DNA of 64,000 nt from an uncultured Erysipelotrichaceae bacterium (GCA_902802905.1 CADCNT010000001.1:62001-126000), one strand, 5' to 3'. Counted from the stretch's first letter, positions 20,932 to 64,000 are shown. Made by a program: numbers and translations. The notes: generated by a model from the sequence alone, not told the origin.

Positions 20932-21102
20932 AGTAAATCTCCTTTAACAAATATATTTTATAATATAAATTATCTTTTTCAATCAATATATCAGAGCGCA
21001 CTTATCAAATGTCGACTGAGCAGTTGATTTCAAATAGATAGATATTAACATTGTAAAAAGAATATTTCTTTTTTCTGCGATAATGTATTAATATTTTTAT
21101 TG

Positions 21103-23364
21103 ATGGTATCTATGGAAAAAGATAAACCTGTAGAAAACATTCATTCTAAAAAGAAGAAATTAACTAGAATTATCACCATTGCTTTAGTGATTCTTGTTAA
21201 CTTAGGCATTGTTGCTTTTATTGTGGTTAGAGAACTAACTAGCAACAAAGGTGGTACATCCAGATTAGATGTTACAAATCTTAATCTTTGGTTCCTCTTT
21301 TTTGGTATAGCTTTATTTGGAGTTGCTTTATTTGCTGAGTTTATGAAATACCGCAGAATGATTCTTTCTAGCTGTGGCAGATTAGATAAACGTGGTGCTT
21401 TCCAAGTTGCTGTATATGGTAAATATGCAGATAATATCACCCCTTTAGGCGCTGGTGGTCAGCCGTTCCAAATACATTTCCTACATAAAAGAGGATATCC
21501 AGGCGGAGCTTCAACTAGCGTTACTTTAAACGGATTTTTATCTCAACAAATCTCATTTATTATCATCTCTGTGGTGGTTTTAATTGTTGCTCCTTTTACC
21601 ACGACGATTCCTGAAGAAGTTTTAGCGCTTAAAATCATGGCCTATATCGGCTTAGCGTTTTACTCATTCTTCCCATTATTAATTATCTTTTTTGCTATAT
21701 TTCCAAAACCAGTTAACGCGATGCTTCTTGGCATATTAAAGCTTGGTTATAAGATGCACATAGTTAAAAACTATGAAGCCGCTCACGCTAGAGCAGTTAA
21801 TGGCATGAACGAATACGTGGTTTTAATTAAACAAGCAATTAAAAAGCCAACTTATATGATTCCGACCATGTTTTGGTCTTTTGTCTATCAATTCGCTATT
21901 TTAACTATTCCATATTTTGCCATTATGGCTTTTGGCGGATCTGTTGATTGGTGGACCACATTCGTTATTACTGTAAATATTTATCTAGCAATTACAATTA
22001 TTCCTACTCCTGGCAATGCTGGAGTAGCAGAAACATCCTTCTTCTTAGTTTTCTCTACTCTTCCTGCTGGTGCTTTATTCTGGGCCATGATTTATTGGCG
22101 CGCTCTTGTTTATTATTCATGGATAATTATTGGCTTAATCGTTGTGCTTAAAACCACAGTGAGAAATAGTTACATGCATAAAAAAGAAGTGCCTAATGAT
22201 AGACCTTTAAACATCTGTTTAGTGTGTGACACTTATTTCCCAATTATTGATGGAGTGGTACGCACTGTAGATCAATACGCTCGAGAAATGACAAAGTTGG
22301 GGCATAAAGTGGTTGTGGTGGTTCCTGATTTAGAAGGAAACGATGATTCTAAGCTTCCTTACGAAGTGTATCGTATGCCTCTATTGAAACTAAGAAGTAT
22401 TCCTTTTGATACAGTTAAGCCTTTTATGAATAGAAAAGCTGCAAAGTATTTTAAGGAATGTAAGTTTGATGTTATTCACTGTCATTCACCAATGTTTTTA
22501 GGAATGATGATGTCTAGATTTGGAAGAAAACATAAGATTCCAGTATTTACCACATTTCACTCCAAATATTATGATGACACGATTAATGTTACTCATAGCA
22601 AATTATTAGCTACTTTAATGGTGAAAATAATTCTTTATTTCTACCATCGTGTCGATAATGTATGGGCATGTAGTGCTTCTACCGGAGAAACGCTTAGGTC
22701 TTATGGTTATAACGGCCATATCGGTGTTATGGAAAATGGTGTGGAAGATCTACCAAAAGGTAACATTGAAGAATATAAAAAAGAAGCGGTTGAGCATTAT
22801 AATATTCCAACTGATAAACACTTGTTCTTGTTTGTTGGCCAACAAATATGGCATAAAAATCTAAAACTTGTTTTAGATACCACTAAAAAGATAAACGAAG
22901 AAGATGATAAATACCATGCAGTAATTGTTGGCACTGGTTATGATGAAGAGGCGATTAAAAAGTATGCTTCTGAAATAGGTATAAGCGACAAAGTGACATT
23001 TGTGGGCAAGATCAGAAGTCGTAAAACCTTATTTGGTTTATATAAAGCTTCAGACATTTTCTTCTTCCCATCTTTATATGATAACGCGCCACTTGTAGTT
23101 AGAGAGGCTGCATTAGCAGAATTACCTTCTTTATTAGTTAAAGGTAGCAACGCTGCTGAAATTGTTATCGACGGGGAAAACGGCTATTTAGCGGACAATG
23201 ATGTTGATTCAATGTGCGCCAGAATTAAAGCAGCCTATGAAGCCAAAAACATGAAAGAAGTGGGTAAAAAGGCTGCGGAGACCATCCCAATTCCTTGGAG
23301 TGTAATCGCTAAACAAGTCATAGAAAGATATGTTTTAGAAACAAAACATATTAAAAAAGTGTAA
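21103..23364 (+). CDS. Flippase-like membrane domain fused to a GT4 glycosyltransferase
   Basis: The N-terminal half (about 20-355) is an LPG_synthase_TM/UPF0104-type domain with about eight helices and the motif TPLGAGGQPFQIHFL. The C-terminal half (from about 370) is a GT-B family 4 transferase: NICLVCDTYFPIIDGVVRTV, HCHSPMFLG, HSKYYDDTI, ENGVED, VGQQIWHKN, then PSLYDNAPLVVREAALAE with the donor-binding Glu residues. It probably glycosylates a lipid on the inner leaflet and may help move it outward. No strong Shine-Dalgarno is visible; ATG 21103 and ATG 21112 are both possible. Only 22 bases separate it from the PPTase gene, so it may head the NRPS operon. Confidence 0.8.
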   Translation: MVSMEKDKPVENIHSKKKKLTRIITIALVILVNLGIVAFIVVRELTSNKGGTSRLDVTNLNLWFLFFGIALFGVALFAEFMKYRRMILSSCGRLDKRGAFQVAVYGKYADNITPLGAGGQPFQIHFLHKRGYPGGASTSVTLNGFLSQQISFIIISVVVLIVAPFTTTIPEEVLALKIMAYIGLAFYSFFPLLIIFFAIFPKPVNAMLLGILKLGYKMHIVKNYEAAHARAVNGMNEYVVLIKQAIKKPTYMIPTMFWSFVYQFAILTIPYFAIMAFGGSVDWWTTFVITVNIYLAITIIPTPGNAGVAETSFFLVFSTLPAGALFWAMIYWRALVYYSWIIIGLIVVLKTTVRNSYMHKKEVPNDRPLNICLVCDTYFPIIDGVVRTVDQYAREMTKLGHKVVVVVPDLEGNDDSKLPYEVYRMPLLKLRSIPFDTVKPFMNRKAAKYFKECKFDVIHCHSPMFLGMMMSRFGRKHKIPVFTTFHSKYYDDTINVTHSKLLATLMVKIILYFYHRVDNVWACSASTGETLRSYGYNGHIGVMENGVEDLPKGNIEEYKKEAVEHYNIPTDKHLFLFVGQQIWHKNLKLVLDTTKKINEEDDKYHAVIVGTGYDEEAIKKYASEIGISDKVTFVGKIRSRKTLFGLYKASDIFFFPSLYDNAPLVVREAALAELPSLLVKGSNAAEIVIDGENGYLADNDVDSMCARIKAAYEAKNMKEVGKKAAETIPIPWSVIAKQVIERYVLETKHIKKV

Positions 23365-23386: not shown

Positions 23387-23980
23387 ATGAAATCATTAGA
23401 AGTGATATTCTTCGACACTAATAAGATTGATTTAAATCATCTTTTAGGTTCGACATTTCTAAGTGATGCTAATTTAGAGGAATTATCTAGATTTAAAATG
23501 GACGAGACCAAAAAGGAAAAGGCCTGTTCATTTATTTTAAAGAATAAATATGTAAGAGATTATCACGTTAACAAGTTTGATAAACCTGTTAGTGATGTCT
23601 GCTATTTTAATGTCAGTCATTCAAAAGGCTTAGTGGTTTTTATTAAGGATGAAGTTCCTGTTGGAATTGATATTGAAAAAGTTAGACCAGTTAGTAATGA
23701 CTTAATTGACTATATCTCCTCTATAGAGGAAAATAAATATATTAAGAGCGAGTCGAACTTCTATGAAGTTTGGACCAATAAAGAATCTTTGAGTAAGTGC
23801 ATTGGAACAGGTATTAAAGACAAGATTAAAGAAATACCTGCTTTACCAATTAATGGAAAAAAAGAATATAAAAATAGAGTATTTTATTGTTTTACAATAA
23901 ATTATAGTGACGCAATTATATCTATCACAAGAGAAAGCGATGAACCATTTGTAGTAAAAATCGTGGAGGAAAAGTTATGA
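23387..23980 (+). CDS. Sfp-type 4'-phosphopantetheinyl transferase
   Basis: The 197-residue protein has the Sfp family motifs in order: CYFNVSHSKG, VGIDIEK (G93, D95, with E97 binding magnesium) and WTNKES (W129, K132, E133) followed by Lys. It transfers phosphopantetheine from CoA to carrier-protein serines. The stop overlaps the NRPS start (ATGA), so its role is activation of the two T domains of that synthetase. The arrangement recalls aureusimine-type loci, where a PPTase accompanies the dimodular NRPS. Confidence 0.9.
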   Translation: MKSLEVIFFDTNKIDLNHLLGSTFLSDANLEELSRFKMDETKKEKACSFILKNKYVRDYHVNKFDKPVSDVCYFNVSHSKGLVVFIKDEVPVGIDIEKVRPVSNDLIDYISSIEENKYIKSESNFYEVWTNKESLSKCIGTGIKDKIKEIPALPINGKKEYKNRVFYCFTINYSDAIISITRESDEPFVVKIVEEKL

Positions 23981-26900
23981 ACAAGTATTATCCATTATCT
24001 AGTAGTGAGCAAGGACTATACATCTCTTCTTTAAATTCTGGAGATGCCTATAATCTTGCTAACGTTGTTAATCTTGGTAAAGATGTAACTCTCGAGCAAG
24101 TTAATAAAGCACTTAATGCGATATTTGAAGCTCACCCATATCTTTTCACGGTCCTTTCTATTGATGAAGACGGCAATATCCTAAAGCACATTGAAAAAGA
24201 AGAATTCAAACTTAAACTCAAAGAAGTTAAAGAAGTTAAGATTGATTCTAAACCATATGAATTACTCAATAAGCATTTATATCGCTTTGAACTTTACAAA
24301 GTAAAAGATGAATATGTTTTCTATTTTGATTTCCATCACATCATTATGGATGGTAGCTCTATTGCTATCTTTATTAGTGATTTCTTCTTAGCGCTCGAAG
24401 GTAAAGAATTAACTAAAGAAGCTAGTGACGCTAACGAATTTTCTAATAAAGAAAAAGCAGATTTAAAATCGAAAAAATATCAAGAAGCAAAAGATTATTT
24501 TGAAAAATTAGTGGGAGGAGTGGAAACTGACTCTACCCCAGTAGAAGATAAAGCAGATCAAGACGTTAGTTATGGCAACATTCGTGTTCCATTAAAAGTC
24601 ACTAACGATGAAGTAAAGAAAATAACTAAGAGAGTTGGTGTTAAAACCTCTACCTTCTTCCTTAGTGCTTTCTCTTATTTATTAAGCAAAATTAACATGG
24701 AAAATGAATCTCTTTTCCTTACTGTGCATAACGGAAGAGATGAATCAGTTAAACATAGTTTTGGCTCTTATGTTAAAACTTATCCTATATATTTGAATTT
24801 TACAGACGAAGATAAAATTAGCGATTATTTGTTAAAAACAAATGAACAAGTGATCGAAAGTGTAAATCACGATATTTATCCTTTCTCAGACATGAATAAA
24901 GATTTAGGTACCAGCGCTGATGTCTTATTCGCTTATCAAGGTGACTATTTCTATTCTGGAACCTACAAAGGAAAATTTGTTGAAGTTACTCCTTTGCTTA
25001 GAAAAGACGGTAAAGAAAAGCTAAGTATCGAATTACATCGTATTCAAAACAATTTCATGATTTGGGTGGAGTATCGTAGTGATTTATATCTTGAATCCAC
25101 AATTAAGCATTTGATTAAAGAATATGATGTCATTCTTTCCGAATTCTTGAAGAAAGAAAAACTAATCGATATTGACTTACTCGATAAAGAAGAAACTAGA
25201 CTATTAGATTCATTTAATGAAACTAACTTCCCATATATTGAAGAAGGAAAGACTATTTTAGATGACTTCTTAGAAGTGGTAAAAAAGTATCCTGATGAAA
25301 TAGCGGTGGTCTATAAAGATAAAAAGTACACCTATAAACAAGTTGATGAGATAAGTACTAGAATCGCTAACGAACTTATTAAGCTAGGAGCAAAAAGAGA
25401 AAAGGTGGTTTCTGTTTTAGCTAAGAAATCTGAATATATTGTTTTAGCTAGTTTAGGTGTTATTAAATCTGGAGCAGCTTATCAACCATTAGATCCATCA
25501 TATCCAAAAGATAGATTGACCTTCATGGTAAAAGATTCCAGCGCCATCATCTTAATTAGAGACAAGGAATTAGATGATTTAGTGGATGATTTTAAAGGAC
25601 ATGTCTTATTTACCGAAGACTTGTTATCTTTAAAAGATAATAGTGAAATCAAAACCCGTCCAGAACCAAAAGATTTGTTTATCATGCTTTATACGTCTGG
25701 CTCAACCGGTGTTCCTAAAGGCGTCATGCTTGAACACGGTAACATCTTTGCCTTCTGTAGATACTATCGAGATAAATTCAAATTTGGTGCTGGTTGTAGA
25801 AATGCTGCCTATGCTTCATATGGCTTTGATGCAGATATGATGGATTTATATCCAACTCTCACTAGTGGAGCAACTGTATATATCATTCCTGATGAAATGA
25901 GACTCAATCTTGTTGAACTTGGTCAATACTATAACGACAATAAGATTACCCATGCATTTATGACTACCCAAGTTGGTCGTCAATTCGCCAGTGAAATTGA
26001 AGTAAAATCACTTAAATATTTTATGGTTGGTGGAGAAAAGCTTGTCCCTATGGATTCACCAAAAGGCTATGACTTCTATAATTTATACGGCCCTACCGAA
26101 GGTACAGTCTTCTGCACCGCCCAAATCGTTGATAAATATTATCACCGTATTCCAATTGGTAAGTGCTTATCAGACTATAAAGTCTATGTATTAGACAAAA
26201 ACAAAAAGAGACTTCCAACTCTTATGAGTGGAGAACTCTATATTTCTGGTCCACAAGTGGCAAGAGGTTACTTAAATAGAGAAAAAGAAAATAAAGAAGC
26301 CTTCCTTACCAACTGGTTTACAAAAGAAGAAAAATTTACAAGATTATATAAAACTGGTGACATTGTGCGTTTATTAGAAGATGGCACGATTGATTTTATT
26401 GGTAGAAAAGACGGACAAGTGAAGATCCGCGGCTTTAGAGTGGAACTTTCTGAAGTAGAAAAAGTGATTCGTGACTATCCAGGAATCAAAGACGCGACTG
26501 TTAAAGATTTCACTGACCCAAGCGGCGTGAAATATATTGTTGCTTATGTTGTTAGCGACTCTAAAGTCGATGTCGAAAAACTCAACGCTTTCATTTTAGA
26601 AAGAAAGCCACCATATATGGTTCCGGCTTACACCATGCAGATTGATAAGATTCCACTCAATCAAAATCAAAAGGTTAATAAAAGAGCGCTTCCTGTTCCA
26701 GAACTTAAAGTGGAAGAGAAGGTGGCTCCAAGAAATCAAGATGAGCAAGATATCTTCGATATCTTAAAAGGTATATTAGGGCACGACCAATTCGGTGTCA
26801 CTAATGACATGTTTGAGGTTGGTTTAACTTCTGTTTCTTCAATTAGATTTACTATTCTTTTGTCTAAAAAATACAATAAATCCGTTGATAATGGAGACTT

Positions 26901-29900
26901 AAAAGAACATCCAACCATCGCCTCTTTAGCAGATTTCCTTGCTTCTAAAGAAGAAGATAAGACTTATGAAGTGCTAGATGAATATCCATTAACCAAGACT
27001 CAAGAAGGCATCTTTGTTGAATGCGTATCTAAAGCTAATTCCACAAACTATAACATTCCATACTTATTCAAATTAGATAAGAAAATGGATTTAGAGAAGT
27101 TAAATAGTGCTGTAGTGAAGGCAATTGATAATCATCCATATCTCAAATCAATTTTACATATGAATGATGATGGCGATATTCTTGCTAGACGTAATAATGA
27201 GCCTGCTAAAGTGGAAATGATAGAAAAAGAAATCGATATCAAGTCTTTAGTAAGACCTTTTGCGATTTTAGATTCAACTCTTTATCGAGTAGAAATCTAT
27301 AAAGGCAAGGATAACTATCTCTTCTTGGATTTCCATCATATCCTTTGTGATGGCTCTTCTGAAGCGATTATCTTAAATGACATCAATAAAGCATACTTAG
27401 GAGAAGAATTAACTCCTGAAACTTATAGTGGCTACGAAGTAGCACTCAAAGAGAAAGATGATTTAGCAAGCGATAAACTAAGCAAAGCAAAAGAGTTCTA
27501 TCAAAACGTGCTTAAAGATGTAGATGGAGAATACACTTTAAAGAAAGATTTGAAAGTTAAAGACGAATCTAAACTTAAATCCATCGACTATGAATTGAAA
27601 TTAGATAATAAGTTAGTAAGTGATTATGTTTCAAATAATAAACTTACAAATAACGCTTTATTTAACTTTGCGTTTGCGTTTACTTTATCTAAGTTTATCT
27701 ACAAGAGTGATAGCCTTTATGAAACTATCTATAACGGCAGAAAATCATCCAAAGTGATGAACACTGTTTCAATGTTAGTAAAGACTTTACCAATCTATAT
27801 CAAATATGCAGAAGAAGATTTAGTTCTTAACAAAGTTAAAGAGATGCAAGAGTTGCTCTCTAGCTCTGAAGAATATGACTTGTATTCTTTCGGAGACATC
27901 GCTAACGACTATAACTTAAAAGCCAATATCATCTTTGCTTATCAAGGTGACAACTTTAACTTTGATGAGATTGGTGGATATCCTGTCACTCCGATCCTTA
28001 TGGAAAGTGAGACTCCTAAGAGTGATTTTGGTTTAGATATCTTCTTAGAAAACGGTGTCTATAGAGCCCATTATGAATGGGATGAAGCTATTTATAATGA
28101 TGAGACAATCGCTTCATTCAATCGTTTGTTTGAACTTGTCTTAAATGAACTTTTAAGCAAACAAAATATCAAAGATATTAATTGCTTGCCAAGGACTGAT
28201 GAAGATTTATATGTGAAATTTAACAACACTAAAGTTGAAATTCCAAACGTTACAGTTAATCAACTTTTAGAAGCTCATGCAGAGTCTAAAGCAAATAAAG
28301 TAGCGGTCATCGCTAAAAACGGCAAACTTACTTATAAAGAGTTAAATGAATCCGCAAACAAGGTGGCTCATAAACTCCTTGATAGTGGAGTAAAACTCGC
28401 TGAATGTGTGGTCATGCTTATGCCTAGAATAAAAGAAGCATATGTAGTTAGACAAGGTATTGTAAAATCTGGAGCAGCTTTTGTTCCTGTTGATCCTAAA
28501 TATCCTGATGACCGTGTGAGCTATATTATCACTGATTCTGGCAGCAAATATTTGATTTCCACTAAAGAAATCATTGCTCAAAAAGCGGATTTGATTAAAT
28601 CAACTAAAGTTAAAGCATTTGCGATTGAAGATATTTTAGAATCTAACAAAGTGAATAATCCTAATGTGAAGATTCCTCAATCATCCATGGCCTATGTGAT
28701 TTATACTTCTGGCTCTACCGGAAGACCAAAAGGCGTGATGATTGCCCATAGAAACTTACTTAACTATGTGGTTGATGACACTAATTTAGCGACCTCAGCT
28801 TATCGTGATATTGGAGTTGATTGCGTTAGCTGTTCATTTGCGTCATTATCATTTGATGCTTCTTTACAAGAAGAGTTTGTTCCTTTAACACATGGTTACA
28901 CCGCAGTGATTGCTAGCGAAGAAGAGATTGAAAATCCATTACTTCTAGCTAAGACCTTAAAAGAAAACAATGTTAAATACATGTTCATGACTCCATCATT
29001 TGTATCTAACTTGTTAGATATTGATGTCTTCGTGGACGCTCTTAAGGGATTTAAATATTTAGACATGGGTGCTGAAGCAGTACCAATGGAACTTTGTAAT
29101 CGCTTAAGAAGTTTAGGCGTAAACGCTAATATCTTAAATGGCTATGGTCCAACTGAAACAACAATTACTGCTACCTATTGTTTAGTAAAAGATAAATACA
29201 TGACTATCGGTACTCCAGTAGCAAACACCAAAGCATACATCCTCGATAAAGCAGGACACATCTTACCAATTAATACGATTGGTGATTTAACTCTTGCTGG
29301 TGAATCCGTTGGTTTAGGCTATCTTGGTATGCCAGATAAAACTAAAGAAGCCTTTATTGAAGTAAAAGGTGAAAAAGCATATCGCAGTGGTGATATGGCA
29401 AGAATTAACTCTGAAGGCAAGATTGAATTCTTTGGTCGACTTGATAACCAAGTAAAACTTAGAGGTTTAAGAGTTGAACTCGATGAAATTGAAAGAGTCT
29501 TAAATTCTTATCCAAGTGTCACAAGAAGTATTATCTTAGTGAAGACAAACGCGACGGAGGGCGACTATTTAGCTGCTTACTTTACCGCTAGCACTAATGT
29601 TGACAAGGATGATTTATTAGCACATATGGCAAAATATCTCACCCCATACATGGTGCCAAAAGTGGTGATGCAATTAGATAAGTTCCCACTTACACCAAAC
29701 GGTAAGATTGATAAAAAATCACTTCCTGAAATCGAAGTGAAAGTGGAACAAAAAGAAATCAAAGCCGCTTCTAACGAACTAGAAGAAAAACTCCTTGGCT
29801 TATTTAAGAAAGCTCTTGGAAAAGAAAACGTCGGAGTGGATGACGACTTCTTTGAATTAGGCGGAACATCCTTAAGTGTTTCTAAAGTGGCAATGTTAGC

Positions 29901-31200
29901 ACTTAACATGGGCTTACCTATCGCTTATGGCGATGTCTTTGAATATTCCACTGTTTTAGAATTAGAAGCTCATATTAATTCATTGAATAAAGATAATTCA
30001 CCGGTTGTTGAAGAAAAGAAACAACAAGCAGAAATTACTAGCCTTGCTCATAACGTAGTGGAAGAAGTTAATGATGTAAAAATTGACTTTGAAACTAAGA
30101 GAGTGCTTTTAACTGGTTCTACTGGATTCTTAGGAATTCACATTCTTAAAGAATTATTAGACCAAAAAGTTGAAGTGATTGCTCTTATTAGAGGTGGCAA
30201 ACTTGATCCAAAACAAAGATTATTAGGCTTATTAACTTATTACTTTGATTCACCTCTTATCGATGAAGTGGATAAATATGTCACCATCGTGGACGGTGAT
30301 GTCACTGATGAGACACTATATGACAAGTTAAAAGATCATGATTTCAATTTAATCATTAACTCGGCAGCGATTGTTAAGCATTTCGCTAACGACGACATTA
30401 TTGAAACAGTTAATGTTGGTGGCTTGAAGAATTTAATTGAAATCGCCAAGAAGAAATCGTCTCGATTAATTCAAATCTCGACCCTGTCTGTTGCTGGAGA
30501 AAACATTGATAATAGGTTCCCTGCATCCTTTAGGATGAAAGAAGATATGTTAGACTTTGGTCAAGATGTATCTAATAAGTATGTCCATTCTAAATTTGAT
30601 GCTGAAAAAGCATTATTAGAAGCGGTAAAGAATGATGGATTGGACGGCAAAGTCATCCGTGTTGGCAACTTGATGAGTAGACAAAGCGATGGAGAATTCC
30701 AAGCCAACTCCATCACCAATGGCTTTATGCGTGACTTAAAAGGCTATGTTACTTTACATAAATTCCCAGTGAATTCAATGGATGTGGAGGTTGATTTCTC
30801 ACCAATCGATGAAGTTGCAAAAACCATACTTTTACTTGCAAAAACTCCACGCAAGTTCACTGTTTTCCATTCTGCTAACTCTCACATGGTGCAGATGGGA
30901 GATATCGTTTATGTGTTAAATGAACTCGGATTTGATATTGAAGTAGTAAGCGATGACGACTTCCTTAAATCAATGAAAGAAATGATGATGGATGACTCTA
31001 AGAGCATGCTTGTATCTTCACTTATTTCTTATTCATCTAGTGATATGCATACTCACTCATTTATTCTTTCTGATAATGAGTTCTCTAATAAGAGTCTGTA
31101 TCATTTAGGATACAAATGGCCAATTACTGACTATAATTATCTAAAGAACGCAATTGATTCCCTTGCAACACTCGACTTCTTTAACAGGACTGATGTATGA
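23977..31200 (+). CDS. Dimodular NRPS with terminal reductase (C-A-T-C-A-T-R)
   Basis: 2407 residues. C1 (1-425) has HHIIMDG with H120, H121 and D125. A1 (430-905) has TSGSTG at 573-578 and A10 Lys899. T1 carries Ser952 in GLTSV. C2 (985-1420) has HHILCDG with H1120, H1121 and D1125. A2 (1427-1915) has TSGSTG at 1577-1582 and Lys1910. T2 has GGTSL with Ser1965. The reductase (2040-2407) has TGSTGFLG at 2046-2053 and catalytic Y2202/K2206. All catalytic motifs look intact. The product should be a dipeptide released by NAD(P)H as aldehyde or alcohol. The leading C domain, unlike A-first aureusimine synthetases, suggests N-acylation as in the gut dipeptide-aldehyde protease inhibitors. My by-eye specificity residues (A1 about DAMFMGLVFK, A2 about DAQFLMGITK) are tentative; A1 looks hydrophobic. 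Confidence 0.95.
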   Translation: MNKYYPLSSSEQGLYISSLNSGDAYNLANVVNLGKDVTLEQVNKALNAIFEAHPYLFTVLSIDEDGNILKHIEKEEFKLKLKEVKEVKIDSKPYELLNKHLYRFELYKVKDEYVFYFDFHHIIMDGSSIAIFISDFFLALEGKELTKEASDANEFSNKEKADLKSKKYQEAKDYFEKLVGGVETDSTPVEDKADQDVSYGNIRVPLKVTNDEVKKITKRVGVKTSTFFLSAFSYLLSKINMENESLFLTVHNGRDESVKHSFGSYVKTYPIYLNFTDEDKISDYLLKTNEQVIESVNHDIYPFSDMNKDLGTSADVLFAYQGDYFYSGTYKGKFVEVTPLLRKDGKEKLSIELHRIQNNFMIWVEYRSDLYLESTIKHLIKEYDVILSEFLKKEKLIDIDLLDKEETRLLDSFNETNFPYIEEGKTILDDFLEVVKKYPDEIAVVYKDKKYTYKQVDEISTRIANELIKLGAKREKVVSVLAKKSEYIVLASLGVIKSGAAYQPLDPSYPKDRLTFMVKDSSAIILIRDKELDDLVDDFKGHVLFTEDLLSLKDNSEIKTRPEPKDLFIMLYTSGSTGVPKGVMLEHGNIFAFCRYYRDKFKFGAGCRNAAYASYGFDADMMDLYPTLTSGATVYIIPDEMRLNLVELGQYYNDNKITHAFMTTQVGRQFASEIEVKSLKYFMVGGEKLVPMDSPKGYDFYNLYGPTEGTVFCTAQIVDKYYHRIPIGKCLSDYKVYVLDKNKKRLPTLMSGELYISGPQVARGYLNREKENKEAFLTNWFTKEEKFTRLYKTGDIVRLLEDGTIDFIGRKDGQVKIRGFRVELSEVEKVIRDYPGIKDATVKDFTDPSGVKYIVAYVVSDSKVDVEKLNAFILERKPPYMVPAYTMQIDKIPLNQNQKVNKRALPVPELKVEEKVAPRNQDEQDIFDILKGILGHDQFGVTNDMFEVGLTSVSSIRFTILLSKKYNKSVDNGDLKEHPTIASLADFLASKEEDKTYEVLDEYPLTKTQEGIFVECVSKANSTNYNIPYLFKLDKKMDLEKLNSAVVKAIDNHPYLKSILHMNDDGDILARRNNEPAKVEMIEKEIDIKSLVRPFAILDSTLYRVEIYKGKDNYLFLDFHHILCDGSSEAIILNDINKAYLGEELTPETYSGYEVALKEKDDLASDKLSKAKEFYQNVLKDVDGEYTLKKDLKVKDESKLKSIDYELKLDNKLVSDYVSNNKLTNNALFNFAFAFTLSKFIYKSDSLYETIYNGRKSSKVMNTVSMLVKTLPIYIKYAEEDLVLNKVKEMQELLSSSEEYDLYSFGDIANDYNLKANIIFAYQGDNFNFDEIGGYPVTPILMESETPKSDFGLDIFLENGVYRAHYEWDEAIYNDETIASFNRLFELVLNELLSKQNIKDINCLPRTDEDLYVKFNNTKVEIPNVTVNQLLEAHAESKANKVAVIAKNGKLTYKELNESANKVAHKLLDSGVKLAECVVMLMPRIKEAYVVRQGIVKSGAAFVPVDPKYPDDRVSYIITDSGSKYLISTKEIIAQKADLIKSTKVKAFAIEDILESNKVNNPNVKIPQSSMAYVIYTSGSTGRPKGVMIAHRNLLNYVVDDTNLATSAYRDIGVDCVSCSFASLSFDASLQEEFVPLTHGYTAVIASEEEIENPLLLAKTLKENNVKYMFMTPSFVSNLLDIDVFVDALKGFKYLDMGAEAVPMELCNRLRSLGVNANILNGYGPTETTITATYCLVKDKYMTIGTPVANTKAYILDKAGHILPINTIGDLTLAGESVGLGYLGMPDKTKEAFIEVKGEKAYRSGDMARINSEGKIEFFGRLDNQVKLRGLRVELDEIERVLNSYPSVTRSIILVKTNATEGDYLAAYFTASTNVDKDDLLAHMAKYLTPYMVPKVVMQLDKFPLTPNGKIDKKSLPEIEVKVEQKEIKAASNELEEKLLGLFKKALGKENVGVDDDFFELGGTSLSVSKVAMLALNMGLPIAYGDVFEYSTVLELEAHINSLNKDNSPVVEEKKQQAEITSLAHNVVEEVNDVKIDFETKRVLLTGSTGFLGIHILKELLDQKVEVIALIRGGKLDPKQRLLGLLTYYFDSPLIDEVDKYVTIVDGDVTDETLYDKLKDHDFNLIINSAAIVKHFANDDIIETVNVGGLKNLIEIAKKKSSRLIQISTLSVAGENIDNRFPASFRMKEDMLDFGQDVSNKYVHSKFDAEKALLEAVKNDGLDGKVIRVGNLMSRQSDGEFQANSITNGFMRDLKGYVTLHKFPVNSMDVEVDFSPIDEVAKTILLLAKTPRKFTVFHSANSHMVQMGDIVYVLNELGFDIEVVSDDDFLKSMKEMMMDDSKSMLVSSLISYSSSDMHTHSFILSDNEFSNKSLYHLGYKWPITDYNYLKNAIDSLATLDFFNRTDV

Positions 31201-32957
31201 CATTAGAGAGAAATTCTAAGTTGATTAATAAAAAGTTCATTCAATATTTGATTCCTTCAATTTTGATGATTTTTGCTATGCAATTTGGTTCTCTTATTGA
31301 TGGTATTTTAGTTGGAAACATGATTGGTAATGACGCTCTTAGTGCGACAGCCTTGGTTGTGCCAATACTCTATGTTATTCAATTACCAGGATTTGCTTTA
31401 GGCATTGGTGGATCAATTGTGATAGCTAATTTTCTAGGAAAAAGAGATTTAGTAAGCGCTAAAAAAGCATTTTCTATTTCTTTAATTATCGGAACAGGCA
31501 TCTCACTATTATTTACAATAATCGCTTTTCCAGTATCAAAACCTTTAGCAAGCTTATTCTCAATTGATTTGCTTGATTATTCGTATCAATACATTCTTGG
31601 CTATTTATTGACCGATCCATTTATTGCTTTAGCATTAATGCTTGGTTCATTTATGGCTGTCGATAATAATCCTAGATTATCTTCAGCGCTATTTATAGTT
31701 TCTAATATCGCAAAAGTCGGGCTAGAAGTATTATTCATTTACACCTTTAAATCTTGGGCAACTTTTGGTGCTGCTATTAGTACTGGGGTTGGTTATTTAG
31801 TTGGCTTATTAACTGTCATTCTTTATGTTAGAAGTAGTAAACGAAATTTAACCTTTTCATTTAATATAAAAGGTAGTGGTTTTAAAGGGATCGTTAGATC
31901 TAGCAGCACAACAGCATTAAACATGGCGCTTACCGCTATTCAAAGCATTATCGTTAATATTTTTATTGGTCGATTAATTACCGAACCTATAGAGTTAATT
32001 ACCTTTGGTCTTGTTGCCAATATGGTGTTCCTATTTGATTTAGCGTGTGGAGGAATTATAAATATTATTCCAACGATTTGCGGTATATTTTACGGCGAAA
32101 AAGACTTTTATTCTTTAAAAAAGCTTACAAGAAAAATCTTCTTTATTAATGTTGGAGTAACCGCAGTTTTGACTGCTATTATTGCTGTATTCCCAAATTT
32201 CTACTCTTTGATTTTTGGCTATCCAAATCCAACTAATCCAGATTATACTTTTAGAATTCTTAGACTATATTTGATTTCGTTTATTCCTTATGAAATAAGC
32301 AAATTCTCCATGGAATATTATCCTTCAATCGAAAAGAATTTGCCTTCTTTGGTCACTGTGTTATTACGTGAGTTAATTATTGTTTTACCTGTGACATTAG
32401 GATTATTATTCACTATGGGACTTGAAGGATATGTATTAGCCTGTGCTATTACAGAAATTACCACAGTCATTATTACTTATGCGTTTATTTTGATTTATGA
32501 AAAGGTGAAGAAAAAGAATTGTCATGGCATTTTCATGTTTGAAAAAGAAGACTATAAAACTTTTGATGTTTCTATAACTAATGAATTAGATAATGCTTCA
32601 ATCATTTCAGAACAATTATCAAAGTTTGCTTTAGAAAATGGTGTTCCTAACCGTGAAAGTCAGATTGTGGGTCTTGCTTGTGAAGAGATGGTGGACAACA
32701 TTGTCGAATTTGGTTATAAGAAAGAAAAACGTAATTATATCGATGTTTCTCTTAAAATCAATAATGATTTGTTATTATTAAGGGTAAGAGATGACGGAGT
32801 GCCTTTTGATCCTACTAAATCTCAAAAGGAAGAAAATGAAGAATACTCAACTAACGGCATTGAGTTAATTAGTAAAATGGTTACTAAGATGTCATATATG
32901 CGTGTTTTGAGTTTAAATAATACAGTTTTTGAAATCAGTTTAGGAGGAAATAATTGA
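31197..32957 (+). CDS. MATE-family exporter fused to an RsbW/SpoIIAB-like HATPase domain
   Basis: Residues 1-440 form a twelve-helix MATE/MOP transporter (KFIQYLIPSILMIFAMQFGSL, IDGILVGNMIGNDALSA, GSIVIANFLGKRD). Residues about 455-586 are a GHKL ATPase domain of the anti-sigma kinase type: N-box EEMVDN with E497 and N501, G1 RDDGVPF with D532 and G534, and G2 NGIELI. The start overlaps the NRPS stop (ATGA), so it is the likely exporter of the peptide. The kinase-like domain should bind ATP and a STAS partner, and the next gene encodes one. Regulation of transport by partner switching is inference from this architecture. Confidence 0.9.
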   Translation: MTLERNSKLINKKFIQYLIPSILMIFAMQFGSLIDGILVGNMIGNDALSATALVVPILYVIQLPGFALGIGGSIVIANFLGKRDLVSAKKAFSISLIIGTGISLLFTIIAFPVSKPLASLFSIDLLDYSYQYILGYLLTDPFIALALMLGSFMAVDNNPRLSSALFIVSNIAKVGLEVLFIYTFKSWATFGAAISTGVGYLVGLLTVILYVRSSKRNLTFSFNIKGSGFKGIVRSSSTTALNMALTAIQSIIVNIFIGRLITEPIELITFGLVANMVFLFDLACGGIINIIPTICGIFYGEKDFYSLKKLTRKIFFINVGVTAVLTAIIAVFPNFYSLIFGYPNPTNPDYTFRILRLYLISFIPYEISKFSMEYYPSIEKNLPSLVTVLLRELIIVLPVTLGLLFTMGLEGYVLACAITEITTVIITYAFILIYEKVKKKNCHGIFMFEKEDYKTFDVSITNELDNASIISEQLSKFALENGVPNRESQIVGLACEEMVDNIVEFGYKKEKRNYIDVSLKINNDLLLLRVRDDGVPFDPTKSQKEENEEYSTNGIELISKMVTKMSYMRVLSLNNTVFEISLGGNN

Positions 32958-33253
32958 TGGAAATTAGTATTAAACATGATGGAGCGTTAATTTTTGCGCT
33001 CAGCGGAAGATTAGACACAATTACTTCTCAACAACTTCTTCAAGCATTTGCTAAAGAAAAAGTGGAAGAAGAACTTTTAATTGTCGACATGAAAGATCTT
33101 GAATACATCTCTTCTGCCGGCTTAAGAGCTCTTTTAGCAATGAAAAAAGAGTTAGCGAGCAAAAACAAAGAACTCGAAGTTCATAATTTGAACGATATTT
33201 GTAAAGAAGTATTTAGAGTGACAGGAATGGGGAACATTCTTACTGTCAAATAA
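32957..33253 (+). CDS. STAS-domain anti-anti-sigma factor-like protein
   Basis: 98 residues forming a single STAS domain (ALIFALSGRLD, LIVDMKDLEYISSAGLRALL). The phosphorylatable serine is in ISSAGLR (S52/S53), as in SpoIIAA and RsbV. The ATG at 32957 overlaps the stop of the MATE-HATPase gene by one base and has AGGAGG upstream; a TTG three bases earlier is not needed. By family knowledge the protein would be phosphorylated by an RsbW-like domain and dephosphorylated by a PP2C. The two neighbours supply exactly these, one of them fused to a transporter. Confidence 0.9.
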   Translation: MEISIKHDGALIFALSGRLDTITSQQLLQAFAKEKVEEELLIVDMKDLEYISSAGLRALLAMKKELASKNKELEVHNLNDICKEVFRVTGMGNILTVK

Positions 33254-33261
33254 TTAAATTT

Positions 33262-35427
33262 ATGAAACGTCGTTTCCCAATTTTATTAAAGGTAATTCTG
33301 TTAGGCATCGGTGTGTCTATTTTAACTTCGGGCACCGCTGTCACAGTTTCGTATTTCAACCAAGTAAATAGAGGGGAACAAAATTTAATTGATTCTATTG
33401 ATAATACTTTGGAAGCTGCCAATGATGTATTTTCGGACTTGGATGGACAAAATACATTGCTTTATGTCGAATATTTAAACGACATTAGAAATTATGTTCA
33501 AAACATTTTTATTAATGATACTGATAAAAAGACAATTGATGATTTTAATACATTTGATGAATTTGCCGCCTATTACCAAACAAAATATCGTTGGATATAT
33601 CCTCACGATCCAAGATTTGGATTATTAGAACCTGGTGAAGCTGAATTCAAATTAGCGTATTATACAATTCTTAATTTATTAGATAATTTCCAAATTTCAT
33701 CTGGTTCTGTATCTGCGTTTTTATCTTATGAGGACGTAGATAAAACCTTAGTCTTTTTAGCAGATTCCCGCATGGATAATAGCGATCGAAAAGCAAATGA
33801 TTATTTCCATGTTCCTGGATATTATTACCATATAAAGAGTTCGGATTATTTTGTGGATTCATCTCATAATAAGCATATGGGCTGCAGGCTAGATGGATAT
33901 TTAACTAGATTCATTGAAATTCGTGAACCAGCATCCACTCCTGATGAACCACAAAGATTGATCGCTAATTTATACATTCAATACGATTTATCAAAAGTTC
34001 ATAAACAGTCACTTGATGTTCTTTATAAAGAGTTATTGATTATCGGTTTATCGGCATTGGCCCTTATTGCTATTTATACCGCGTTTTCATATTTGCTATT
34101 TGTGAAAAATATTAATAAGCTTTCAAAATCATCTAGTGAAATTAGACAAAGATTAGTTGATAAAAACATGAATGAAATCGTGGATATCCCTATTAAATCT
34201 AACGATGAGATGAGTGTATTAAAAGATTCATTGATTGAGATGGAAAAAGCAATTATCAACTATGTTGATATTATTCATAAAGAAGCCCAAGAAAAAGAAA
34301 GAAATAATGCTGAACTTATGGTGGCAAGTAAGATTCAGTTAGATTCTCTACCTCCAGAGAAACTAGAAGATAAAAACGCCTCCTTAAGAGCGTTTATTAA
34401 AACCGCTAAAGAAGTGGGTGGCGATTTCTATGATTACTTCTATCTTGATGACCACCGTTTAGCTGTGCTCATTTCTGATGTTTCCGGTAAAGGCATTCCT
34501 GCCTCATTATTCATGATGAAAGGCAAGGAACTTATTAAATCCGCAGTGCAATCATATAAGTCGCTAGTGGAAGCCGTTAACGGAGTCAATAATATGCTTG
34601 TTAAGAATAATGAAGAATTATTATTCATTACCTCCTTTGTTGCAATTATTGACTTTGAAAAAGGTGAAATTAAATATGTTAATGCTGGACATGAAAAACC
34701 TTATATTGTCTCTAAAGACAAGGTGATAAAATTGGATGGCGAATCTAACATAATGTTAGGAGTTGAAGCCAACTATCAATTCAAACAAGAGTCACATAAA
34801 TTTAATGAAGGTGATTATCTCTTCTTATTTACGGACGGCTTAAATGAATCCATTAATGATAGTGAAGAAGAATTTGGCTATCAAAGAATTGAAGAATCAC
34901 TAAAAGACACTGGTGATAGCCATTTAGATGATGTGATTAATAAATTAATCAATAATCTTGATTCATTTACTGGTTGTAGAGAACAGTTCGATGATATTAC
35001 TATGCTTGCAGTCAAATGCAAAAAGAACGAATTGCATTTACGCTATGAGCAAAAAGATTACTCTATCATTAGTGATGCAACCGATAAGTTTAATGAATAC
35101 TTCTCCTTTATTGCCGACGATAAAAAAGCCTCTATCGGCATTATTATCGATGAAATAGTTAATAACTATGTATCTTATGAAGAAAGAGAAGATTTGGTTA
35201 TTGAAGTCAACTTTAAACTTGTTGATAACGATTTAGAAATTGTCTTTTCCTGTAACGGCAATGATTACGATCCTTTTAAAAACCATAAAGAAAAATTCCT
35301 TGAGACATTCCATTCGGAAATCGAACTTGGTGGTTTTGGCTTATCAATTGTTAAAGATTTATCTAAATCACATAAATATCACTATAAAGACGGACATTCA
35401 TATATTGAAATTGTTGTTGCTTTATAA
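33262..35427 (+). CDS. Membrane sensor PP2C phosphatase (SpoIIE/RsbU type) with C-terminal HATPase domain
   Basis: 721 residues. TM1 (about 8-28) and TM2 (about 255-275) enclose an extracytoplasmic sensor of about 225 residues. A HAMP-like linker follows, then a SpoIIE-type PP2C (about 340-595) with metal aspartates D388 (VGGDFY), D406 (ISDVSGKG), D525 (FTDGLNE) and D577/D578 (QFDDIT). A second GHKL domain (about 600-721) has an E631-xxx-N635 N-box and GGFGLSIV. It should dephosphorylate the STAS protein in response to an outside signal, perhaps the peptide itself, and may also bind or phosphorylate it through its HATPase. No clear Shine-Dalgarno is seen. It ends the six-gene run; no strong terminator follows. 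Confidence 0.9.
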   Translation: MKRRFPILLKVILLGIGVSILTSGTAVTVSYFNQVNRGEQNLIDSIDNTLEAANDVFSDLDGQNTLLYVEYLNDIRNYVQNIFINDTDKKTIDDFNTFDEFAAYYQTKYRWIYPHDPRFGLLEPGEAEFKLAYYTILNLLDNFQISSGSVSAFLSYEDVDKTLVFLADSRMDNSDRKANDYFHVPGYYYHIKSSDYFVDSSHNKHMGCRLDGYLTRFIEIREPASTPDEPQRLIANLYIQYDLSKVHKQSLDVLYKELLIIGLSALALIAIYTAFSYLLFVKNINKLSKSSSEIRQRLVDKNMNEIVDIPIKSNDEMSVLKDSLIEMEKAIINYVDIIHKEAQEKERNNAELMVASKIQLDSLPPEKLEDKNASLRAFIKTAKEVGGDFYDYFYLDDHRLAVLISDVSGKGIPASLFMMKGKELIKSAVQSYKSLVEAVNGVNNMLVKNNEELLFITSFVAIIDFEKGEIKYVNAGHEKPYIVSKDKVIKLDGESNIMLGVEANYQFKQESHKFNEGDYLFLFTDGLNESINDSEEEFGYQRIEESLKDTGDSHLDDVINKLINNLDSFTGCREQFDDITMLAVKCKKNELHLRYEQKDYSIISDATDKFNEYFSFIADDKKASIGIIIDEIVNNYVSYEEREDLVIEVNFKLVDNDLEIVFSCNGNDYDPFKNHKEKFLETFHSEIELGGFGLSIVKDLSKSHKYHYKDGHSYIEIVVAL

Positions 35428-63904: not shown

Positions 63905-64000
63905 ATGAGATCGACATTAGAAAAAGGCGTATTAACAATTTACTTAGAAGGTGAACTTAATTCCTATAGTGCTGAACCTATGGGGAAAGAAATCGACCAA
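63905..64000 (+). CDS. STAS-domain protein, N-terminal part
   Basis: The first 32 codons of a gene cut by the window end. GVLTIYLEGELNSYSAEPMG has the strand-loop-helix start of a SpoIIAA/RsbV STAS domain (compare ALIFALSGRLDTITSQ in the NRPS-operon protein). GAGG lies upstream. A second partner-switching system may begin here. Confidence 0.65.
   Translation, partial: MRSTLEKGVLTIYLEGELNSYSAEPMGKEIDQ

Follow-up and report, generated by a model that had tools for sequence, protein, structure and literature searches.

A MATE exporter carrying an RsbW-like kinase domain beside a nonribosomal peptide synthetase: a candidate sigma-free partner-switching module

What does a partner-switching kinase act on when it is part of an exporter and no sigma factor accompanies it? 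The question is raised by a 64,000-nucleotide (nt) stretch of DNA (here called the window; C1:62001-126000) from the 1.54-Mb, 95.6% complete genome of an uncultured Erysipelotrichaceae bacterium. Directly 3' of a nonribosomal peptide synthetase (NRPS) gene, three genes occupy exactly positions 31197-35427: a MATE pump with a C-terminal RsbW/SpoIIAB-like ATPase (HATPase) domain, a STAS-domain protein with a phosphorylatable serine, and a membrane PP2C phosphatase of the SpoIIE/RsbU type that also carries a HATPase. An earlier note on the window had described this gene set, and our annotation agrees with it. We propose, with moderate confidence, that the three genes form a partner-switching module following RsbU/RsbV/RsbW logic, in which the kinase, instead of binding a sigma factor, is covalently joined to its effector, a pump that would export what the neighbouring NRPS makes.

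Under this proposal, the HATPase on the pump's cytosolic tail would bind the STAS protein and phosphorylate its Ser53, and phospho-STAS would leave the tail. The membrane PP2C would dephosphorylate STAS on sensing a signal, possibly the secreted peptide itself or a cue from the envelope, through its extracytoplasmic domain; unphosphorylated STAS would then re-dock on the tail and switch the pump between two activity states. That pump activity is the output, and with which sign, we infer. The proposal builds on the gene set and its conservation, the intact catalytic residues of kinase and phosphatase, the STAS serine, co-occurrence within the order, co-evolution, and the fact that this genome lacks an alternative sigma factor.

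Architecture of the exporter, STAS and phosphatase genes

31197-32957, + strand: MATE exporter with C-terminal RsbW/SpoIIAB-type ATPase domain, 586 amino acids (aa); Pfam MatE 7.6e-26
32556-32942, + strand: fused kinase domain, aa 454-582, presumed cytosolic C-terminus; HATPase_c_2 4.4e-12
32682-32699, + strand: N box E496-E497-M-V-D-N501, with general base (RsbW Glu49) and Mg ligand (RsbW Asn53)
32790-32813, + strand: G1 box D532-D-G-V-P-F-D-P539, from invariant columns
32847-32861, + strand: degenerate G2 box S551-T-N-G554-I, only the last Gly kept, from alignment
32957-33253, + strand: STAS-domain antagonist, 98 aa; Pfam STAS 7.7e-15
33113-33115, + strand: phosphorylatable Ser53 (SpoIIAA Ser58 / RsbV Ser56), from alignments to 1auz and 1th8
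33262-35427, + strand: membrane sensor phosphatase, 721 aa, ordered transmembrane segment, extracytoplasmic domain (about aa 59-243), transmembrane segment, PP2C, HATPase; SpoIIE 1.9e-42
34357-35022, + strand: PP2C catalytic domain, aa 366-587; SpoIIE 1.9e-42, SiaA match
35044-35424, + strand: second HATPase, on the phosphatase, aa 595-721; Pfam HATPase_c 8.7e-5, below cut-off

Both family profile and fold identify the pump as a MATE transporter. Its AlphaFold 2 model (predicted local distance difference test (pLDDT) 83.4) matches DinF-BH (4lz6; Z 34.8 over 430 residues, root mean square deviation (rmsd) 3.3) and the ClbM-type MATE 4z3n (Z 27.7). The MATE fold is followed in the model by a compact alpha/beta domain whose strands and helices are arranged in an RsbW-like order. 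The fold matches listed for this model cover only its MATE part, and the kinase fold is argued from this element order and from profiles: aa 461-569 match HATPase_c_2 and, in NCBIfam, RsbW (4.6e-6), and a profile of fused-domain relatives matches the RsbW structure 6m36 (E 0.003), aligning E497 with RsbW Glu49 and N501 with RsbW Asn53.

The fused domain has the general-base Glu and Mg-ligand Asn of a GHKL serine kinase, and E496, E497 and N501 are invariant in all 91 distinct fusions that we collected; these residues lie outside the patterns used in the search, so their invariance is unbiased. In the G1 box, D532, D533, G534, F537, D538 and P539 are invariant in the fusions of the window's order, which were found by plain protein search without motif bait, and the same invariance within the set of 91 is partly due to selection by the search pattern. 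The earlier note had read N, G1 and G2 boxes here: the first two stand, and the third is overstated, because the window's domain lacks a complete ATP-lid glycine motif and keeps only the last Gly (STNGI). This Gly (G554) is found in 91/91 fusions, and a second, at 553, in 33/91.

The STAS gene starts with ATG, with an alternative TTG one codon upstream, and the protein's profile matches SpoIIAA, RsbV and related structures. It is a single-domain protein in which Asp20, Tyr50 and Ser53 (RsbV Asp23, Tyr53 and Ser56) are invariant, the Ser53 position being Ser in all 66 STAS proteins of fusion loci. The PP2C protein (model pLDDT 83.6) has SiaA as the best structural match of its catalytic domain (6k4e, Z 28.1), with RssB, SpoIIE and Rv1364c also scoring high, and its metal-binding Asp residues D388, D406, D525 and D578 are invariant in 22 of 22 aligned sequences.

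Over aa 360-721, the phosphatase also aligns with the RsbU-RsbW unit of Rv1364c (3ke6), at Z 27.3 but with an rmsd of 9.3. Compared with the bifunctional plan of SypE or Rv1364c, the HATPase is present in the window's protein and its G1 Asp is gone; near relatives have an intact N box and G2, usually without the G1 Asp, which is kept in a clade of genus g5. The module's two HATPases show complementary defects: the pump's has N and G1 with a degenerate G2, and the phosphatase's has N and G2, usually with no G1 Asp.

The three genes are tightly joined to each other and to the NRPS gene. The stop of the NRPS gene and the start of the MATE gene overlap, the MATE TGA and the STAS ATG share one base (TGATG), and the PP2C start lies 9 nt past the STAS stop.

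Distribution and linkage of the three genes

The earlier note had proposed surveying genomes for MATE-HATPase fusions and their non-random association with STAS, PP2C and NRPS genes, and such a survey bears the association out. A kinase-domain search of 245 genomes of the order, with flanks fetched and annotated, found 31 fusions in addition to the window's, of which one is cut off where its contig ends; most of these loci read NRPS, MATE:HATPase, STAS, PP2C:HATPase. A scan of genome contigs with the patterns RDDGxxFDPT and a C-terminal NNT motif returned 155 relatives, of which 80 were kept; these belong to Bacilli and Clostridia, almost all are metagenome-assembled genomes and many are named as rumen samples. 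Merging and de-duplicating both searches gave the 91 distinct fusions. An NRPS gene is present in 86 of their loci (within 150 nt in 82), STAS in 66, PP2C in 61, both of the latter in 58 and neither in 22. Among the 40 loci with at least 6 kb on each side, the counts were 39 for NRPS, 29 for STAS and 31 for PP2C. Recurrence across 91 distinct fusions rules out chance or mis-annotation as the source of the gene set.

Linkage within the order is sometimes broken, and the genes are then retained. Six genomes (G239, G143, G038, G202, G204 and G152) carry the fusion without an adjacent STAS or PP2C gene, and two (G118 and G209) carry it with STAS and no adjacent PP2C. All eight hold a STAS orthologue (112-146 bits against the STAS profile) and a STAS-PP2C pair elsewhere in the genome; in G204, NRPS, STAS and PP2C lie on one contig and the fusion on another. 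Such separation with retention is seen in several genera (g22, g12, g5, and g51 of another family). We therefore rejected, within the order, the idea that the STAS-PP2C pair is dispensable to the fusion, the pair being kept in 8/8 unlinked cases. A STAS protein of at least 105 bits occurs in all 32 fusion genomes, against 9 of the 213 others (hypergeometric 3e-32, with no correction for phylogeny). Dependence in this order thus runs one way: the fusion requires the STAS-PP2C pair, which can exist without it.

Among 392 sampled genomes of the phylum, high-scoring fused matches are restricted to the window's genus, and the spread at larger scale is therefore patchy. A patchy distribution over Bacilli and Clostridia is what a mobile cluster would show, and it could mean that an NRPS cluster acquired an unrelated STAS-PP2C module and moves as a block with it. 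We consider this explanation highly improbable, because the STAS-PP2C pair and the fusion have repeatedly separated with both retained, and because the kinase is covalently fused to the pump in every locus.

Three loci of Lachnospiraceae/Eubacterium (L158, L165 and L169) have a longer arrangement, in which NRPS, MATE:HATPase and STAS are followed by a second MATE, a GH3-family enzyme, PP2C and a stand-alone HATPase. The C-terminus of the second MATE in L165 resembles a dead HATPase that has lost the N-box Asn and the G1 Asp. Judged by sequence, this second pump is apparently tied to the same kind of switch. When MATE pumps with such a degenerate tail were searched for in the 392 genomes of the phylum, only weak matches to fusions of the first class were found.

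Partners of the STAS protein and the kinase domain

The earlier note had suggested that the STAS protein binds the transporter's own kinase domain, and patterns of co-evolution agree with it. In a mirror-tree comparison of 40 loci in which every part is present, partial correlations were 0.35 for STAS with the fused kinase (subsampled, 0.37 +/- 0.09), 0.23 with the PP2C domain, 0.10 with the PP2C protein's HATPase and 0.06 with the membrane part of the pump. STAS co-evolves most closely with the pump's fused kinase domain.

At the level of residues, we used the RsbW-RsbV contacts as a reference, including RsbW Asp42 with RsbV Arg84/87 (PMC7340262). Nearly all fusions have hydrophobic residues at the Asp42 position, and the RsbV Arg87 position is Glu84 in STAS. 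By analogy with the RsbW-RsbV interface, Glu84 would lie near kinase residue 486, one helical turn from the Asp42 position. The pair 486/84 combines R/K with E in 55 of 66 cases, E/D with T/N/G in 10 and K with S in one, never acid with acid; by corrected mutual information, it comes sixth among some 12,600 kinase-STAS pairs.

Several points weigh against the proposed module. Linked genes share a history that partial correlation removes only in part, overall inter-protein coupling at the interface was not significant (shift control 0.10), and the charge-complementary 486/84 pair may go back to no more than one or two changes during evolution. Most fusions have a degenerate G2 box, which could make for weak ATP turnover. 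In about a quarter of the fusion loci, mostly in Clostridia, the retrieved DNA contains no STAS or PP2C gene; these genomes are large, with numerous STAS genes. Orthologous STAS-PP2C pairs also occur without the fusion in about nine genomes, two of them directly behind another C-A-T-C-A-T-R NRPS; the STAS family must therefore have another partner there, and the phosphatase's own HATPase is the obvious candidate kinase in these genomes. The suggested partnership thus stands in part: co-evolution and the charge pair favour it, and the transporter is not the sole partner.

Fusion-free loci have their own arrangements. In L205:7107-16781 and L207:1416-11052, a different C-A-T-C-A-T-R NRPS is followed by STAS and PP2C with no MATE:HATPase, and some other fusion-free STAS-PP2C pairs lie near an NRPS-like gene.

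Could the fused ATPase be a non-catalytic docking pseudokinase that recruits STAS, the real kinase being the phosphatase's HATPase in a two-way enzyme like SypE or Rv1364c? Such an arrangement would account for the degenerate G2 box and for the fusion-free pairs; the N box and G2 of the phosphatase's HATPase are kept, as is its G1 in the clade of genus g5, and Rv1364c unites RsbU and RsbW domains in one chain. We nevertheless find it improbable. A general base and Mg ligand invariant in 91/91 fusions would be unexpected for a dead domain, the phosphatase's HATPase is usually the one without the G1 Asp in the window's clade, and STAS tracks the fused domain more closely than it does the phosphatase's HATPase.

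The pump might instead be the input. In a transport-coupled sensor kinase, cycling or load would alter the fused kinase, STAS would act on another target, and the module would report export. RbaV, like SypA and CapS, is a STAS-type protein that acts on another target. The STAS protein is the downstream component in SypA/SypE (PMC10120452), and CapS, a STAS-like repressor, is the output of the CapK kinase (PMC13373217). Fusion-free STAS-PP2C pairs, two of them directly after another NRPS, likewise imply another partner or output for STAS. We regard this explanation as possible, if rather unlikely: no candidate downstream target travels with the module, its regular companions being only NRPS, phosphopantetheinyl transferase, pump and PP2C, and in the 32 genomes tested the fusion is always accompanied by STAS-PP2C, although the pair can occur without it, as would sooner be expected if the pump were an effector than if it were the sole input. 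Between gating and reporting of export, both of which the earlier note had allowed, the data lean to gating and do not decide.

The reading in which the kinase is joined to its effector also implies that no sigma factor is involved. Domain matches in the window's own genome comprise three HATPase_c_2, two SpoIIE-type, four STAS and one sigma-70 protein, the last (sigma70_r2) a 429-aa factor of the housekeeping RpoD/SigA type. The observation that no sigma factor accompanies the module therefore extends to the whole genome, this housekeeping factor apart: a genome-wide search found no alternative sigma factor, a missed gene being not fully excluded at 95.6% completeness. With only a housekeeping factor in the genome, an alternative sigma factor is not available as a target to either of its two PP2C modules, and the candidate of a sigma factor hidden elsewhere was rejected on the same search.

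A conventional pathway, in which the binding target of the fused domain or of STAS is a sigma factor from another locus and the pump serves as a membrane anchor, is in our view very unlikely. Several relatives do have 2-8 sigma-70-type matches, mostly ECF (extracytoplasmic function)-sized, and a genus-g22 locus (L115) has one such gene about 2 kb upstream of its phosphopantetheinyl transferase and NRPS genes. Six other fusion genomes (G034, G168, G127, G115, G224 and G209) have, like the window's, a single sigma70_r2 match, and no sigma gene was seen to belong to the conserved cluster. In 80 of 91 fusions, another residue stands in place of RsbW Arg23, a STAS contact whose SpoIIAB equivalent also contacts sigma.

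Neighbouring genes and relation to known systems

23387-23980, + strand: 4'-phosphopantetheinyl transferase, AusB-like; Pfam ACPS 7.1e-10, NCBIfam AusB 1.7e-19, below cut-off
23977-31200, + strand: NRPS C-A-T-C-A-T-R, 2407 aa, aureusimine-synthetase-like; Pfam domains, NF047350 AusA 1086.8 bits

These two genes and the three of the module are closely packed in one direction over window positions 23387-35427. Pfam domains give the NRPS a two-module plan ending in a reductase, and its score of 1086.8 bits falls below the curated NF047350 cut-off of 2500, which places it outside AusA. The AusB-like transferase, found at the equivalent position in most relatives, probably activates the NRPS. The NRPS resembles synthetases that make protease-inhibiting dipeptide aldehydes and pyrazinones, and it is the presumed source of the pump's cargo, which would be a dipeptide aldehyde or pyrazinone. 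From gene adjacency, which recurs as an NRPS in 86/91 fusion loci, the pump would export this product. A glycosyltransferase/flippase gene upstream (21100-23364) was rejected as part of the module, having no match beside the clusters of relatives. Promoter-like sites were fewer than the shuffled expectation and terminator-like sites about 2 standard deviations more, and neither was used.

STAS and PP2C genes also appear in other settings. A second sigma-free module lies about 70 kb upstream in the window's genome (C1:22984-25130; L017:8985-11131) and consists of STAS and a PP2C with multiple transmembrane segments and a C-terminal HATPase; the relative G115 (L059) has a similar STAS, a protein of STAS-APH size and a PP2C-HATPase directly 3' of its exporter module. 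On contig C10 of the same genome (L016:3080-9552), a radical-SAM/SPASM protein, a small membrane protein, a C39-peptidase ABC exporter and a second ABC exporter are followed by a STAS gene, which thus ends another peptide-exporter cluster. In relatives of genera g12 and g22 (L065, L066 and L104), the exporter-kinase or STAS-PP2C genes adjoin a cluster of the radical-SAM/C39 exporter type. From window position 63905 to the end (L018:1906-5072), a STAS domain fused to an APH-like domain follows pyruvate kinase, with an EAL-domain protein next; the gene exceeds the window.

Partner switching is best known for controlling transcription, and a few other outputs have been described. Here a kinase of this type is covalently joined to an exporter, and Bacilli and Clostridia from animal guts have conserved the unit beside NRPSs. 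If the proposal is true, it describes direct post-translational control of a secondary transporter through serine phosphorylation of a bound protein, and it supplies an exporter, a regulator and a candidate sensor for this class of NRPS cluster. More tentatively, the fusions may represent a widespread class in which a partner-switching kinase resides in a secondary transporter, STAS phosphorylation controls nonribosomal peptide secretion directly, without transcription, and the sensor phosphatase may read the secreted product in a membrane feedback loop. In the open-licence literature searched, we found no description of a GHKL-type serine kinase fused to a transporter with its own STAS and PP2C.

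Each part of the locus has known counterparts. With the aureusimine (AusA/AusB) and gut dipeptide-aldehyde/pyrazinone clusters it shares an NRPS with a terminal reductase and an AusB-like transferase; it differs in the NRPS score noted above and in the added fused exporter, STAS and PP2C. MATE pumps serve NRPS and polyketide synthase clusters, an example being ClbM of the colibactin cluster, which has the same fold (4z3n), is likewise encoded with an NRPS and, to our knowledge, has no fused kinase domain. Rv1364c of Mycobacterium tuberculosis, a regulator of the sigma-F pathway, joins PP2C and HATPase in one chain, as the window's phosphatase does, and has no transporter. MlaB, a STAS-domain protein, is part of the ABC transporter MlaFEDB and bears on its post-translational regulation (PMC7367683). 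The likeness is a STAS protein in a transporter complex, and the differences are an ABC ATPase rather than a GHKL kinase and lipid transport rather than NRPS product export. We know of no kinase or phosphatase cassette for the MlaB system.

Closer in logic are the precedents for sigma-free partner switching, namely SypA-SypE of Vibrio fischeri (PMC10120452), SiaABCD of Pseudomonas aeruginosa (PMC8457831) and CapK-CapS (PMC13373217). All three pair a kinase with a STAS or STAS-like partner and have non-sigma outputs, with a PP2C in Syp and Sia; unlike the module here, their outputs are biofilm control, a diguanylate cyclase and a DNA-binding repressor, and none is described there as transporter-fused. 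With RsbU-RsbV-RsbW and SpoIIE-SpoIIAA-SpoIIAB of Bacillus subtilis, the module shares a PP2C, a STAS protein with the same serine and a GHKL serine kinase with N and G1 boxes, whereas here the kinase is fused to a MATE pump, the Arg23 contact of RsbW is replaced, the G2 box is degenerate and there is no cognate alternative sigma factor. The module would work like partner switching and lacks the sigma factor and the full G2 box, and we therefore class it as a variant of known partner switching.

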